Shown here piece after piece: positions 4,718-59,369 of a stretch of DNA of 64,000 nt; position 1 is the first letter of the stretch; each line of letters opens with the position of its first letter. The stretch is from positions 1-64,000 of the forward strand of contig CAIKZZ010000034.1 of assembly GCA_903832085.1 (NCBI GenBank). The letters run 5' to 3'. The notes beneath the pieces are model-generated. The model was not told where the DNA came from, did no database searches, and saw nothing but the letters and a program-made list of their open reading frames with translations. The translations under genes and the position numbers were made by a program. The DNA comes from an uncultured Pseudomonadota bacterium. Its GTDB lineage: Bacteria; Pseudomonadota; Gammaproteobacteria; Steroidobacterales; Steroidobacteraceae.

Positions 4718-5587
4718 CTAATGTATTGCCATCCCAATACGCTTCAGTGGCGACCCGGCAGACGTGTTAAAACTCAGCCAGATTCGCAGTGCCTTACCAA
4801 CCAAATTCGCTTCGGGCACGAAGCCGAGTTCAGGAAAACGGCTATCGGCACTGTTATCACGATTATCGCCCATGAAAAAATAGTATCCCAGTGGCACGAC
4901 ATAGGTTCCCTGCGGTGCTCTCGACACATCGGCAGCTGGACCCAAAATCGGCGCTCCACTTTGTAAGGGGCACTCGTTTAAATCACGCTTAGGCGTACAG
5001 CCACGGTAGTACCGCTGCGGCTCCTCGGGGCAATACATTAGGGCGTGGGTGTGTTGGTCTAACACCTCGCTCGCCTCCCGAAAATTGCGGTAACACGCAT
5101 CATCGGTAAATGCACCGGTATCCGTCGCCGTCATCTCTTTACCGTTTACCCAAACGGCATCACCACGCACTTCGACTCGATCGCCGGGCAACCCCACTAA
5201 TCGCTTAATATAATTCACCGACGGCTGGCTAGGTTTACGAAAAACAACTACATCGCCGCGTTGCGGCTGCCCGACATCCACAATTTTTTTGTTCCACACG
5301 GGTAGACGGATGCCATAGCTAAATTTACTGACAAAGATAAAGTCTCCGTCAACCAGAGTCGGCATCATTGAATCTGATGGGATCCGAAATGGCTCAAAAA
5401 CAAAAGAACGGACTAACAGAACAACAAGGATCACCGGGAAAAATGACCGCGCGTACTCGATAATGACTGGCTGCGGCGCGCCGACCGGACGAGCTTTGCT
5501 CAAGAACCAGACATCAAGCGCACTAATGATCCCAGTAACAAGCGCGAGCACAACCAGCACTAGCGAAAAATCAAAAATTAATGGCAT
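4718..5587 (-). CDS. lepB: Signal peptidase I
   Basis: Inner-membrane serine protease that removes signal peptides from exported proteins. It has 289 aa: two N-terminal transmembrane segments (about residues 5-25 and 48-62), catalytic Ser73 in PSDSMMPTL, the general-base Lys128 in YIKRLVGLPGD, and the conserved GDNRDNSADSRF box near residue 240. The periplasmic domain has an insert of about 40 residues with four cysteines (165, 186, 197, 206), more than the single disulfide of E. coli LepB. A GGGAGG site lies seven bases before ATG 5587, and lepA ends 25 bases upstream. lepA-lepB is a standard pair. Confidence 0.97.
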   Translation of the reverse strand: MPLIFDFSLVLVVLALVTGIISALDVWFLSKARPVGAPQPVIIEYARSFFPVILVVLLVRSFVFEPFRIPSDSMMPTLVDGDFIFVSKFSYGIRLPVWNKKIVDVGQPQRGDVVVFRKPSQPSVNYIKRLVGLPGDRVEVRGDAVWVNGKEMTATDTGAFTDDACYRNFREASEVLDQHTHALMYCPEEPQRYYRGCTPKRDLNECPLQSGAPILGPAADVSRAPQGTYVVPLGYYFFMGDNRDNSADSRFPELGFVPEANLVGKALRIWLSFNTSAGSPLKRIGMAIH

Positions 5588-5611
5588 GCGCCCTCCCGAT
5601 AAAAAAGTCCG

Positions 5612-7405
5612 TTACTTTTTTCCAACCTGCAATACCGCAAGGAAAGCCTCTTGAGGGATCTCTACTGTCCCTAACTGTTTCATGCGTTTTTTGCCTTCTT
5701 TTTGCTTTTCAAGCAGCTTGCGTTTACGGCTTAAGTCGCCGCCGTAACACTTGGCAAGTACGTTTTTACGCATTGCCTTTACGCTCGCACGGGCAACGAT
5801 TTGACCACCAATAGCCGCCTGAATCGCTACTTCAAACATCTGCCGCGGAATCAACTCCTGCATCTTATCAACAAGTTCCCGCCCACGATGATAAGCGGTA
5901 TCACGATGAACAATAAGCGACAACGCGTCGACGCGGTCTGCATTAATAAGCACATCCAGACGCACGAGATTGGCTGCTTGAAAGCGGTTAAATTCGTAAT
6001 CAAAAGAGGCATAACCCCGACTGACACTCTTGAGGCGGTCGAAGAAATCAAGCACGACATCCGCTAGCGGTAATTCGTACTGCAAGGACACTTGATTGCC
6101 CACGTACAACATCTTTTTTTGAACGCCACGTTTTTCTGTACACAACTGCAGCACACCACCGACATGCTCCGGTGGCACCAAGATGTTTGCTGTAATGATT
6201 GGTTCACGCATTTCCTCAATGCGATCAATCGGCGGTAGTTTTGAAGGATTATCTACGGTGCGCACTATTCCGTCGGTGGTAACCACCTCGTATACAACGG
6301 TAGGCGCACTCGTCACTAGATCTAAGTTGTATTCTCGCTCTAAGCGTTCCTGCACAATTTCCATGTGCAAAAGACCGAGGAAGCCAATACGAAATCCAAA
6401 ACCAAGCGCGGTAGACACTTCGGGTTCGTACTGCAGCGCTGAATCATTTAATTTGAGCTTCTGCAGCGCATCTCGAAACTGCTCGTAGTCATCCGATGAC
6501 ACGGGGAAAAGACCGGCAAATACGCGTGGCTGAATCTTTTTAAATCCAGGCAATGGCGCGCTGCAAGGCGCCGACTCCAGCGTGATTGTGTCGCCAACGG
6601 GCGCGCCATCAATCTCCTTGATCCCAGCGATGACGAATCCCACCTCGCCGGCCGCGAGTTCCTCGCCATCAGTGCGCTTTGGCGTAAATCGACCAAGGCG
6701 CGCACATTCATGGGCGCGTCCCGTAGACCACACTTTGAACTTCTGGCCACGCTTTAGACGACCACTCATCACCCTAACGAGCGACACCACACCGACGTAA
6801 TTATCAAACCATGAATCGATGATCAGTGCCTGCAGCGGTCCGTTTGGATCCCCTAACGGAGGAGGAATACGCTTGACGATTGCCTCAAGTAACTCCTCAA
6901 CGTTTTCACCCGTTTTTGCTGAGACGCGCACGGCGTCACCGGCTTCGATACCAATAATCTCTTCGATCTCAATAATGACGCGATCAGGGTCTGCCGAAGG
7001 TAAGTCAATCTTGTTAATGACAGGCAGTACGGTTAAACCTTGTTCAAGAGCCGTGTAGCAATTCGCCACGCTTTGCGCTTCCACTCCCTGTGCGGCATCC
7101 ACGACAAGGAGCGCTCCCTCGCACGCTGCTAACGAGCGTGACACCTCATAGGAGAAGTCCACGTGCCCTGGCGTGTCGATAAAATTCAGCTGGTAGTCGA
7201 TTCCATCCTGAGCGACATAGCGTAATGTGACGCTTTGTGCCTTGATGGTGATACCGCGCTCGCGCTCAAGATCCATTGAATCAAGCACTTGGGCCTGCAT
7301 CTCGCGCTGCTGCAAGCCACCACAAAGCTGAATCAAACGATCCGCGAGCGTGGATTTACCGTGGTCTACATGGGCGATGATGGAAAAATTGCGTATGGCG
7401 GGCAT
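5612..7405 (-). CDS. lepA: Elongation factor 4 (LepA), back-translocating GTPase
   Basis: Ribosome-associated GTPase related to EF-G, implicated in reverse translocation and in initiation or assembly of 30S subunits. The 597 aa protein (E. coli 599) has the P-loop AHVDHGKST (11-19), ERGITIKAQ switch, [14 protein letters not shown], and the LepA-specific C-terminus with [31 protein letters not shown] box with an upstream TGC (extended -10) sits 48 bases before the start. It opens the lepA-lepB-DUF4845-rnc-era-recO-pdxJ-rlmD run. Confidence 0.98.
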
Positions 7406-55447: not shown

Positions 55448-56675
55448 GCAACGAGCACAGATAGTGCCGCTCCCGGTTAATCCAGGCCTCGCACAGCTCA
55501 AACCCTACCCGTTTGAGCGCTTAGCAGCGCTGCTGCATGGCATATTGCCCCCAAGCGACTTCACTCCCATTGCGCTGTCAATCGGCGAGCCCAAGCATGC
55601 ACCACCCTCATTTGTCATTGAGGAACTCACCCGCGCTCTAGGCGGCGTCGGCGTATACCCCGCCACCCTAGGGCTGCCTGAGTTCCGCCAGGCCGTTACA
55701 GGCTGGCTTACGCGTCGTTATGGCCTACAGGGGCTCATTGATCCGGCCACCATGGTGCTGCCCGTGAATGGGACACGTGAGGCGCTGTTTGCGTTTGCAC
55801 AGAGCCTGATTGACCCGACAACCGCTCGGCTGGTGGCTATGCCAAATCCGGGTTACCAGATCTACGAGGGCGCGGCCCTACTCGCCGGTGCCACGCCCTA
55901 CTTTCTGAACACACACCCAGAGCACGACTTCCTGCCCTACCTTGAGGCCGTCCCTGATCACGTCTGGGAACGTTGTAGCCTGCTGTATTTGTGCTCTCCG
56001 GGTAACCCGACAGGCGCCACGGCCTCGCTCGAGTTCATGGCTCTGGCGTTGAAGCTCGCTGATCGTTTCGGTTTTGTGATTGCCGCCGACGAGTGCTACT
56101 CGGAAATATACGATAGCGAAGCTGCACCACCGCTGGGCTTTCTCGAAGCCTGCCGCCAATTGGGCCGCACAGGCTTTGATCGCGTGGTGGTGTTTCACAG
56201 TCTATCGAAACGCTCAAGCTTACCGGGCTTGCGCTCAGGCTTCGTCGCAGGCGACGCGCAGCTCATTGCGAACTTCCGTCAGTACCGCACCTACCACGGT
56301 TGTGCGTTGCCGATACACGTACAACGCGCGAGCATTAAAGCATGGGATGACGATACTCACGTCCTTACAAACCGCGCGCTCTACCGAGCCAAATTTGCGG
56401 CCGTACTACCGATTCTTGCCGAGGTGCTCCCCGTCTTTCGCCCAGCGGGAAGTTTTTACCTTTGGCCGTTCGTCGGCGCTGATGACGAAGCCTTTACCCG
56501 TGAGCTGTATGCACAGACTCACGTAACAGTTGTACCCGGCAGCTATCTTGCGCGCGATACGGGTGATGGCAACCCAGGGGCTGGTCGAGTACGCATTTCC
56601 CTTGTGGCGCCAATCGATGAATGCATCGAAGCCGCCAATCGCATTTCCAATTTCATTAAGAGTCGAGCCACATGA
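55440..56675 (+). CDS. dapC: Succinyldiaminopimelate transaminase DapC
   Basis: PLP-dependent class I aminotransferase that converts N-succinyl-2-amino-6-ketopimelate to N-succinyl-LL-DAP for lysine and peptidoglycan. In 411 aa, [59 protein letters not shown], the DECYSEIY stretch and the PLP lysine in [17 protein letters not shown] fit the DapC family. The start is GTG 55440, and its stop overlaps dapD (ATGA). Flanking dapD supports DapC over a general aminotransferase. Confidence 0.92.
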
Positions 56676-57493
56676 CTGACACACGCATCGCCATCATCGA
56701 AGGTCACTGGGATTCACGTGGCGAACTCAACCCAACGAGCGCACCAGCAGAACTGATCACAGCCCTACACTCAGTGATCATGGATCTCGATAGCGGCCGG
56801 GTGCGGGTCGCAGAACCAACCGCATCTGGGTGGGTGGTCAACCAGTGGCTAAAAAAAGCCGTCCTCTTGTATTTCAGAGTCAATGACAATCAAGCCATGG
56901 CCGCCCAGTACACTAATTACTTTGACAAAGTTCCACTGAAGTATGCGGGCCTAAGCGAGGCTGAACTGCGTGCGATGGGCACCCGAGTCGTGCCACCCGC
57001 GGTTGCGCGCCGCGGCGCTTACATCGCATCTGGCGTCGTGCTCATGCCCAGCTATGTCAACATCGGCGCCTACGTCGATACCGGCACGATGGTCGATACT
57101 TGGGCAACCGTGGGTTCGTGCGCCCAGATTGGCAAGAACGTGCATCTGTCCGGAGGTGTCGGTATTGGCGGGGTACTTGAACCGCTACAAGCCAATCCCA
57201 CTATCGTCGAGGACGGTTGCTTTATCGGCGCCCGCTCGGAGATTGTTGAAGGCGTGATCGTGGAACGTGGTGCTGTCATTTCGATGGGCGTCTTCATCGG
57301 CGCCAGCACAAAAATATACGATCGGGAAACAGGCGCCGTCACATATGGTCGGGTACCTGCAGGCGCGGTGGTTGTTGCGGGTAATTTACCGTCAGCGGAT
57401 GGCAAGTATTCGCTGTACTGCGCGGTCATCGTCAAGAAAGTGGATGAAAAAACTCGCGCGAAGACTTCGATTAATGAGCTACTGCGCGACTAG
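56672..57493 (+). CDS. dapD: Tetrahydrodipicolinate N-succinyltransferase
   Basis: Transfers succinyl from CoA to tetrahydrodipicolinate, opening the ring, the step before DapC. In 273 aa, an N-terminal helical domain (about 1-100) is followed by a hexapeptide beta-helix with [46 protein letters not shown] (start and end of one run) and [16 protein letters not shown]. The length matches E. coli DapD (274). It is last in the map-glnD-dapC-dapD operon. The 63 bases after it hold only a weak six-base-pair hairpin. Confidence 0.98.
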
Positions 57494-57556: not shown

Positions 57557-58309
57557 TCAACAGTCACGATTCGATACATTGGCTAAGTGCGCTCTGAACT
57601 CTTCTTGCTTCTGGATCGATTTAACAGGATGGTACATGGTATTCGCATTCAACTGATGCGCTTGCCAGTCGTGCCGAAACACAATTCCTTTAAGGGCATC
57701 AACACATTTCACAGACAGGTTATTGTGCAGAGCAAGCGTATGAAAAATATACTCAATAAATTTATCCACTTTCGGATGCCTGCAAGCGAATTGCTCAACA
57801 AGCTGCAATAGCTTTGCCGAAGCGCGCATTGCGCAAACCATTCCGCGCGCGCATGGCAAGCTCAACGCCGGTGTGATTGAGCGTGCATGAGCCCAAACAT
57901 CAGCCTCTCGAGACTCAACAATCCAACTCTTTGATGAAAGCAGATCCGCACCTAAGTTAGCAGCATCGATCTCACCTATCAACGTAGTTCGCGGCACGAA
58001 AACGTCATCTTCAAGAAACCAAACGTTTTCATAAGCAGTATTCAACCGACAGAAATACAAAAGCGCCTTATCCCAAGCACTGACGCGTAGCCCTGGTGCC
58101 TTGCTGAGACGATTGAACCGATTAAATCCACTATCCCCACATACAGTGTCATCAAGTTGAACAAACTTTATACGATGGTCGGTGGGCACCTGGAAATCAT
58201 TATCGTCGACAAAATAAAACACGTCGTAGTCGTCGTCACGCCCAGTCTTACTATAGAAATCTACCAGCTCTGATTTAGGCCTTAAACTCAGGATTGCGAT
58301 TGCATTCAT
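57557..58309 (-). CDS. Unrecognised glycosyltransferase-like protein
   Basis: A 250 aa protein with no signal peptide or membrane segment. I do not recognise a named family. Features suggest a GT-A-like glycosyltransferase: DYDVFYFVDDNDF near residue 27, a WDKALLYFC helix near 80, and an ENVWFLEDDVFVP strand with an acidic E-D-D triplet near 98, which could be a DxD-type metal site. The function is inference only. Codon use and base composition look more A/T-rich than the neighbours. ATG 58309 is directly preceded by a run of nine G. It is isolated between dapD (convergent) and pstB (same strand, 148 bases upstream). Confidence 0.65.
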   Translation of the reverse strand: MNAIAILSLRPKSELVDFYSKTGRDDDYDVFYFVDDNDFQVPTDHRIKFVQLDDTVCGDSGFNRFNRLSKAPGLRVSAWDKALLYFCRLNTAYENVWFLEDDVFVPRTTLIGEIDAANLGADLLSSKSWIVESREADVWAHARSITPALSLPCARGMVCAMRASAKLLQLVEQFACRHPKVDKFIEYIFHTLALHNNLSVKCVDALKGIVFRHDWQAHQLNANTMYHPVKSIQKQEEFRAHLANVSNRDC

Positions 58310-58318
58310 CCCCCCCCC
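58310..58318 (-). repeat. Nine-G homopolymer abutting a start codon
   Basis: C9 on the plus strand (G9 on the coding strand), preceded by GA and directly followed by the ATG of the glycosyltransferase-like gene. It may act as the ribosome-binding site. Length change by slipped pairing would alter the distance between GAGG and ATG. Confidence 0.9.
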
Positions 58319-58399
58319 TCGCTACTCGTGAGCCTACATACAACGACGTGACTCGAATCAAACTGACACACCCCGGCAAAGCCTCAATGGCTCGCACTG

Positions 58400-58423
58400 A
58401 GGCCGATGTTCGAATATCGGCCT
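58400..58423 (-). terminator. Hairpin downstream of pstB, possible terminator
   Basis: A perfect eight-base-pair inverted repeat, AGGCCGAT and ATCGGCCT with an eight-base loop, 34 bases after the pstB stop. There is no T-run, so intrinsic termination is doubtful. It may end or stabilise the pst transcript. The remaining gap to the glycosyltransferase-like gene has no other assigned element besides the G9 tract. Confidence 0.45.
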
Positions 58424-58457: not shown

Positions 58458-59351
58458 TTAGCCAAAACGACCCGTGATGTAATCCTCAGTCAATTTATGG
58501 CGCGGATTGGTAAACATCTGATTGGTAGAGCCCACCTCAATGACGTTACCGAGGTGAAAATATGCCGTGCGTTGCGACACGCGAGCAGCCTGCTGCATAT
58601 TATGCGTCACGATTACGATGGCGTAATTCTGACGTAGCTCGTCAATTAGATCCTCGACTCGAGCCGTCGCCACAGGATCGAGCGCCGAGCATGGCTCGTC
58701 CATCAAAATGACCTCAGGGTCCACCGCGATGGCTCTCGCAATACACAAGCGCTGTTGCTGACCACCCGACAAGCCCGTACCGGGCTGATCGAGCCGATCC
58801 TTAACCTCGTCCCAAAGGCCTGCTTTGCGCAGCGATGTCTGCACGATCTCATCGAGATCCGCGCGTGTGGGGGCAAGCCCATGTATGCGTGGGCCGTATG
58901 CAATATTCTCAAATATGGATTTTGGAAAAGGATTTGGGTGTTGAAACACCATGCCGACGCGCGCGCGCAACTGCACAACGTCTTCACTCCTATCGTAGAT
59001 ATCCTTACCGTCCAAGGTAATGGTCCCGCTGACACGCGCAGCCGCAATCGTGTCATTCATGCGATTTAAGCAGCGCAAAAACGTTGACTTACCGCAACCT
59101 GATGGGCCAATGAAGGCGATCACTGAATTTCGACCAATATCGATATTGACATCAGCAATCGCTTTCTTTGCGCCATAGTGCACGCTGACCTGGCGCGCCG
59201 TCATAACCGGATCCTGCACGGTCACCTGGCCAATTGTTTGTGTATCAATTGCAGCGCCCGGCGCTGACTGATCACCAGCCGCAGAGACAGTTGCTCGGGG
59301 CACCGCAAACTTCGCAGCATCCACAACGACATCACGCGTGTCACTTGCCAT
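58458..59351 (-). CDS. pstB: Phosphate ABC transporter ATP-binding protein
   Basis: ATPase that drives high-affinity phosphate import. 297 aa from ATG 59351 (TTG 59357 also possible). There is an N-terminal extension of about 50 residues. Walker A is GPSGCGKST, the Q-loop region [13 protein letters not shown] is PstB-specific, the signature is LSGGQQQR, and Walker B is [12 protein letters not shown], with [10 protein letters not shown] as the switch histidine. It ends the pstC-A-B run; phoU does not follow. Confidence 0.97.
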
Positions 59352-59369
59352 GGTCAAAAAACCTCTGCG

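Follow-up and report, generated by a model that had tools for sequence, protein, structure and literature searches.

In the 64,000-nt stretch of contig CAIKZZ010000034.1 analyzed here (hereafter the window), which belongs to the genome of an uncultured member of the family Steroidobacteraceae (GCA_903832085.1), a run of nine G (G9) directly precedes the ATG of the minus-strand gene at 57557-58309. We regard this run, together with the GA preceding it, as the Shine-Dalgarno (SD) sequence and spacer of a lone, laterally acquired gene for a protein of the GT-A fold, and assign this reading a probability of roughly two in three (0.68). In the scenario we propose, the gene would have been inserted between dapD and pstB in this species. 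GA and G9 would then serve as SD and spacer at once, GAGGGGG pairing with the anti-SD of 16S ribosomal RNA and four G intervening before the start codon. Changes in the length of the tract would probably be neutral, or nearly so, or mildly graded in their effect on translation.

On the minus strand, GAGTAGCGA, nine G, and ATGAATGCA follow one another, the ATG occupying positions 58309-58307. Both this direct reading and the census of run lengths agree with the original prediction, in which G9 was placed immediately before the ATG. The in-frame TAG just 5' of the tract (Table 1) leaves no room for a longer in-frame protein at G9, and no start codon occurs between this TAG and the ATG, which is the first start of the frame. 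One of the relatives of the protein (L083; see below for the details) also opens with M-N-A and aligns from residue 1, supporting the ATG as the true start. The start differs in the other relatives: it lies six residues earlier in the alignment in L087, and the frame of L091 continues upstream.

GAGGGGG, made up of GA and the first five G, was the best anti-SD site within the 25 nt before the ATG. The predicted pairing of -11.4 kcal/mol, obtained by RNAduplex against an assumed 16S 3' end, was the strongest among seven starts in the window, and the other six, mechanical starts that are possibly misplaced, ranged from +0.6 to -7.0 kcal/mol. From this predicted pairing, the use of the tract as a ribosome site appears most likely. 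In the original prediction, the ribosome site was distinct from the tract and lay beyond it; in fact, the tract constitutes most of the only SD-like sequence present. The leader shares with other SD leaders the purine-rich composition, the predicted anti-SD pairing, and the distance of a few bases to the ATG, and departs from the usual ones in that the G run after GA takes the place of AGGAGG and merges with the spacer.

The predicted pairing energy stayed constant for tracts of 6-13 G, while the spacer grew by one base with each added G. The predicted local accessibility was nearly flat for 6-12 G, ranging from 0.39 to 0.46 for the SD and from 0.69 to 0.78 for AUG+6. As both pairing and access are predicted to be nearly independent of length, changes in tract length would be graded in effect at most. 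Of the two consequences of a length change that had been anticipated, the shift in SD spacing (one base per G) is borne out by the predictions, and little change in mRNA access is predicted; it was also correctly stated that such changes spare the coding frame of the main start.

The structure of the protein was predicted by AlphaFold2 with an alignment of four sequences, and the resultant model was of moderate confidence (pLDDT 66.4 and pTM 0.69), with pLDDT values below 50 at residues 66-72, 129-157, 212-235, and 244-250; the model from the single sequence was unusable (pLDDT 37.1). Foldseek detected 214 matches in PDB at E <= 0.001, and the query-normalised TM-scores ranged from 0.33 to 0.50 among the 50 matches listed. 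The top ten included the ABO enzyme GTB, IspD cytidylyltransferases, chondroitin synthase, and mannosylglycerate synthase. The best match in a library of viral structures was the glycosyltransferase of Tetraselmis virus 1 (E 1.2e-8), and a second aligner (VIA) placed mannosylglycerate synthase 2bo7_A first (Z 14.2, rmsd 3.6, 178 residues aligned). In the model, E100-x-D102 sits at the end of the strand comprising residues 95-100, residue 101 being H in L091. We take codons 100-102 to occupy the place of the DXD motif of GT-A enzymes, at the end of a central strand, as an E-x-D variant and not as a literal D-x-D.

Altogether, the model and the fold matches support a GT-A-type alpha/beta fold, at the level of the fold only, and support the assignment of the protein as a GT-A-type nucleotide-sugar enzyme. 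The label "glycosyltransferase-like" in the original prediction is thus upheld as far as fold and motif are concerned (the model, the fold matches, and E-x-D). Glycosyltransferases and nucleotidyltransferases both appeared among the top fold matches and are not separated by the fold; the sugar-transfer activity of the protein is putative. The protein resembles mannosylglycerate synthase, ABO GTB, IspD, and GlmU in the predicted fold and in the E-x-D ending a strand, but it is only 11% identical to 2bo7_A and, unlike these GT-A enzymes, is assigned to no Pfam or NCBIfam family.

With the protein alone as the query, we found no relative in Pfam, PHROGs, NCBIfam, PDB sequences, plasmids, phages, genome_contigs, or viral_contigs. 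Among the profiles of known families, the best match was at E 0.18 in Pfam and E 0.079 in PHROGs, with none in NCBIfam, and no match passed the cut-off. A degenerate DNA pattern for the motif W-F-x-E-D-D-V-F matched a single place in IMG/VR, which provided the first relative, L083. This 241-aa protein, encoded on a 281-kb contig, aligned over residues 1-239 with an E of 5e-27 and an identity of 28%; its own best Pfam match (E 0.006) was below the cut-off of that family, and it had no PHROG match. An alignment-based scan detected a 256-aa relative that is identical on two contigs (L087 and L088; E 2e-24 and 29% identity). The relative in Prosthecomicrobium pneumaticum (L091), which was found in one of 104 candidate stretches, aligned over residues 2-247 with an E of 5e-44 and an identity of 34%. 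The relatives, at 25-35% identity, represent two viral lineages and Prosthecomicrobium. No further relative was found with L083 as the query in phages or with L091 as the query in plasmids.

All four of the tested neighbours of L087 matched phage families (a DnaB-like helicase, a DNA polymerase exonuclease subunit, and two DNA methyltransferases), as did two of the five tested neighbours of L083, the functions of the latter families being unknown. We conclude that the family is real, rarely found by the searches made, and common to viruses and bacteria, and that the viruses carrying it are probably phages. An origin in giant viruses was considered, given the 281-kb contig and the giant-virus proteins among the fold matches, and was weakened by the phage-family matches of the two L083 neighbours. 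L091 (at 4998-5816) is the sole other bacterial member found and carries E-H-D at the motif in place of E-D-D. In its surroundings (5 kb on each side), no polysaccharide cluster was recognised by eye.

The gene was absent from all of the 14 congeners, and no match was found beyond its own genome among the 40 relatives searched. The sample of the order, which comprised 396 genomes, yielded nothing apart from the own genome and a pair of weak hits (E 0.003 and 0.006). Both hits were rejected as spurious by eye: the first comprises 47 aligned residues on the strand opposite to a 260-aa frame, and the second is a gapped stretch in a 390-aa frame resembling alpha/beta hydrolases. Likewise, only the own genome was recovered from the samples of the phylum (398 genomes, by protein and profile) and the class (369 genomes, by profile), and the four-sequence profile revealed no additional member in either. 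The G+C content of the gene (0.459) and that at the third codon positions (0.458) are the lowest among 39 open reading frames (ORFs) of at least 250 codons, which were chosen mechanically and have mechanical starts.

We take the left neighbour to be dapD from the family it resembles. In 9 of the 14 congeners, dapD and pstB share a contig and are convergent. In five of these, the last sense codons of the two genes are 21, 53, 55, 62, and 68 nt apart, and dapD and pstB are separated by 970 nt in the own genome. A lateral insertion between dapD and pstB is probably the simplest reading of these findings. We found no flanking repeats at the borders of the insertion, the only short direct pair lying within the gene. 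A DNA search of plasmids with the 2.1-kb region yielded 147 records, and the 20 records listed match the pstB part only.

Table 1. Positions of the features discussed in the text, numbered from the first letter of the window.
Feature	Position	Strand	Basis
dapD, left border, convergent	56672..57493	+	Matched in 15 of 15 genomes of the genus
Gene of 250 codons (stop included) for a GT-A-like protein, probably laterally acquired	57557..58309	-	Relatives, model and fold searches, G+C content
Codons 100-102 (E-D-D)	58004..58012	-	No variation at E100 or D102 among the four aligned sequences
G9 tract abutting the start codon	58310..58318	-	Direct reading and run-length census
Best predicted SD helix, GAGGGGG (GA and the first five G)	58314..58320	-	RNAduplex, -11.4 kcal/mol
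In-frame TAG just 5' of the tract	58322..58324	-	Direct reading; frames enumerated
Inverted repeat between pstB and the gene	58400..58423	.	Two 12-nt arms, 92% complementary, 0 nt apart
pstB, right border	58458..59357	-	Match in each of the 15 genus genomes; DNA matches annotated pstB

G9 is the sole run of G or C of at least 7 in the window, in which G and C runs of four, five, and six bases number 177, 29, and 10, respectively, none is of seven or eight, and one is of nine. Of 100 dinucleotide shuffles of the window, 32 equalled or exceeded its count of G8 matches. Across the genome (2,649,145 bases in 48 contigs), 28 overlapping G8 matches merged to 18 runs of at least eight, namely 12 of eight, four of nine, one of ten, and one of twelve bases. 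When a first-order Markov model was derived from the window and scaled up to the whole genome, it predicted approximately 35 runs of at least eight (18 observed), 8 of at least nine (6 observed), 2 of at least ten, and 0.1 of at least twelve, against the one G12 observed. Thus, the long G runs of this genome are without excess, except perhaps the single G12, and the G9 tract itself is not beyond chance. By rough arithmetic assuming 2,500 genes, the chance of finding at least one run within 15 nt 5' of a start is p ~0.12 for the 18 runs and ~0.04 for the six runs of at least nine.

Two other long runs were noted, the frames near them being named by eye; further G9 runs lie on C8 and C26. The G12 run, the longest in the genome (L007:1501-1512; C9:64379-64390), lies near the 3' end of a frame resembling GntR/FCD-type regulators and ~190 nt before a TonB-receptor-like frame; changes in its length alter the last residues and the stop of the former. 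This G12 is a better candidate for mutability than G9 of the window. The G10 run (L016:90-99; C18:90-99) lies near a contig end, ~180 nt before a TolC-like efflux frame.

Several observations weigh against the combined reading of G9 as an SD of near-neutral length and of the gene as a lateral insertion. The spacing of four bases between SD and AUG is on the short side, so that the gain or loss of one or two G could noticeably alter translation. By the same arithmetic as above, the chance that a run exactly abuts a start is ~0.009 for the 18 runs and ~0.003 for the six runs of at least nine. Among the 39 ORFs, moreover, the tract-bearing gene is the only one with a G run of at least four in the 20 nt before the start. 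The abutment and this uniqueness together leave room for selection on the tract. No sigma-70-type promoter was found for the gene.

The same holds for the junction between dapD and pstB. In the remaining four of the nine congeners, the two genes are apart by ~0.4, 0.8, 3.9, and 10 kb, and a PhoU-like frame adjoins pstB in the larger gaps of G001, G010, and G011 by eye (in G011, as read among the ORFs listed). The tenth congener, G002, has a second pstB-like copy with 53% identity ~0.8 kb from dapD (the region L081, C9:1500-4500), its 83%-identical pstB being on a different contig. These larger gaps and the copy in G002 imply that other members of the genus, too, can carry sequence at this junction.

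Finally, G8 followed by ATG occurs 96 times, in 70 of the 296 genomes of the order searched, against 27 matches of the reversed control. Of the 96 places, we inspected 30, each in a different genome and the place in the window not included; an ORF of at least 100 aa opens at the ATG in seven, and in two of these an in-frame stop lies no more than 30 codons upstream. TAG, a triplet avoided in coding DNA, forms part of the reversed control. We discounted the difference between 96 and 27 because of this TAG and because most of the inspected matches open no sizeable ORF. G8-ATG does not look like a leader type spread across the lineage.

Because of the PhoU-like frames following pstB in G001, G010, and G011 (named by eye, not by profile), we considered whether the gene was inserted where phoU had been lost. 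This was rejected, as PhoU is encoded on the same contig at 64111-64680. This phoU (C34:64111-64680) lies just past the window, beyond dsbB and away from pstB, unlike the PhoU-like frames in G001, G010, and G011. In G005 (L070:1109-1514), ~400 nt between pstB and dapD resemble by eye a decayed PhoU-like gene, and this remnant suggests gene turnover at the dapD/pstB junction.

The tract was originally put forward as a possible basis of phase variation. In a contingency locus of this kind, slipped-strand mispairing would vary the length of the tract in the population and, through the spacing between SD and AUG or the structure of mRNA, bring about graded or switch-like expression of a surface-modifying enzyme. 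Precedents exist. Campylobacter jejuni NCTC11168 has 29 polyG/polyC loci, and tracts within the reading frame switch genes ON and OFF (PMC4965091). In espR of Mycobacterium tuberculosis, an added G in a tract of the 5' untranslated region changes the predicted folding of the leader and raises translational efficiency (PMC11898584). G9 is of a length comparable to the C. jejuni runs and stands beside a transferase-like gene, but it lies outside the frame and is not known to vary. With espR it shares the G run in a 5' leader, where length can affect translation; the espR run, however, starts 144 bp before the translational start and has been proposed to act via leader folding, whereas G9 abuts the ATG and its length hardly changes the predicted local accessibility.

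Also in favour of a contingency locus are the GT-A-like product and the abutment to the start, an arrangement somewhat improbable under chance. On the other hand, the genome shows no enrichment of such tracts, none of the three relatives has a run of G or C of at least 7 at the locus fetched, and the predicted pairing and access barely respond to length. Phase variation as originally predicted finds no support in these results. Tract lengths cannot be compared among the congeners, since the gene is absent from all of them. The higher count of G8-ATG in the order is discounted here too, an ORF of at least 100 aa opening at seven of the 30 inspected places. Neither do the neighbours form a surface-polysaccharide cluster by eye, and a surface role of the product, as hinted at in the original prediction, is unsupported for a gene standing alone between dapD and pstB. 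We thus regard phase variation as a minor possibility and favour a plain poly-G ribosome site over it. A related version, in which the poly-G SD itself is mutable and each slip by one G shifts the spacing by one base, giving graded expression of a virus-shared glycosyltransferase-like protein while the frame and the pairing strength are unchanged, appears more doubtful still. Our literature searches, to which this statement is limited, retrieved no mutable tract that itself is an SD.

It is also conceivable that the length of the tract is an error of assembly or sequencing, or that the tract is chance composition without function. Homopolymers are a common site of indel errors. G9 matches occur in all 15 genomes of the genus, the own genome included, and the run counts fit the composition. 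A functional ribosome site, however, requires just such a purine-rich leader right before the start, and chance would be somewhat unlikely to place the tract there. We consider this explanation unlikely, if the least so of the alternatives. By far the least probable is a fusion of frames, in which upstream GTG or TTG codons are read through the tract and, at some tract lengths, become continuous with the gene. With nine G, the frames entering from upstream end 1 or 32 nt beyond the A of the ATG, and lengths of G8/G11 and G7/G10 would bring different upstream GTG/TTG codons into frame, adding 11-30 residues. The putative upstream starts are GTG and TTG only, and L083 begins with M-N-A, both of which speak against such a fusion.

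The surroundings of the tract offered few additional signals. No terminator-like site was reported at the inverted repeat between pstB and the gene, and the sole terminator-like site detected is inside the gene. Predicted folding of the 228-nt leader region is no more stable than that of its shuffles (z -0.53). An intramolecular G-quadruplex was judged unlikely by eye, as there is only a single G run.

If the tract varied, it would represent a natural homopolymer acting as ribosome site and spacer at once, with slippage tuning translation stepwise. The analysis also gives a caution: where a long G run stands alone ahead of a start, an SD is the first function to consider. As it stands, the gene next to the tract brings to light a rare GT-A-like family common to viral contigs and at least two bacteria.
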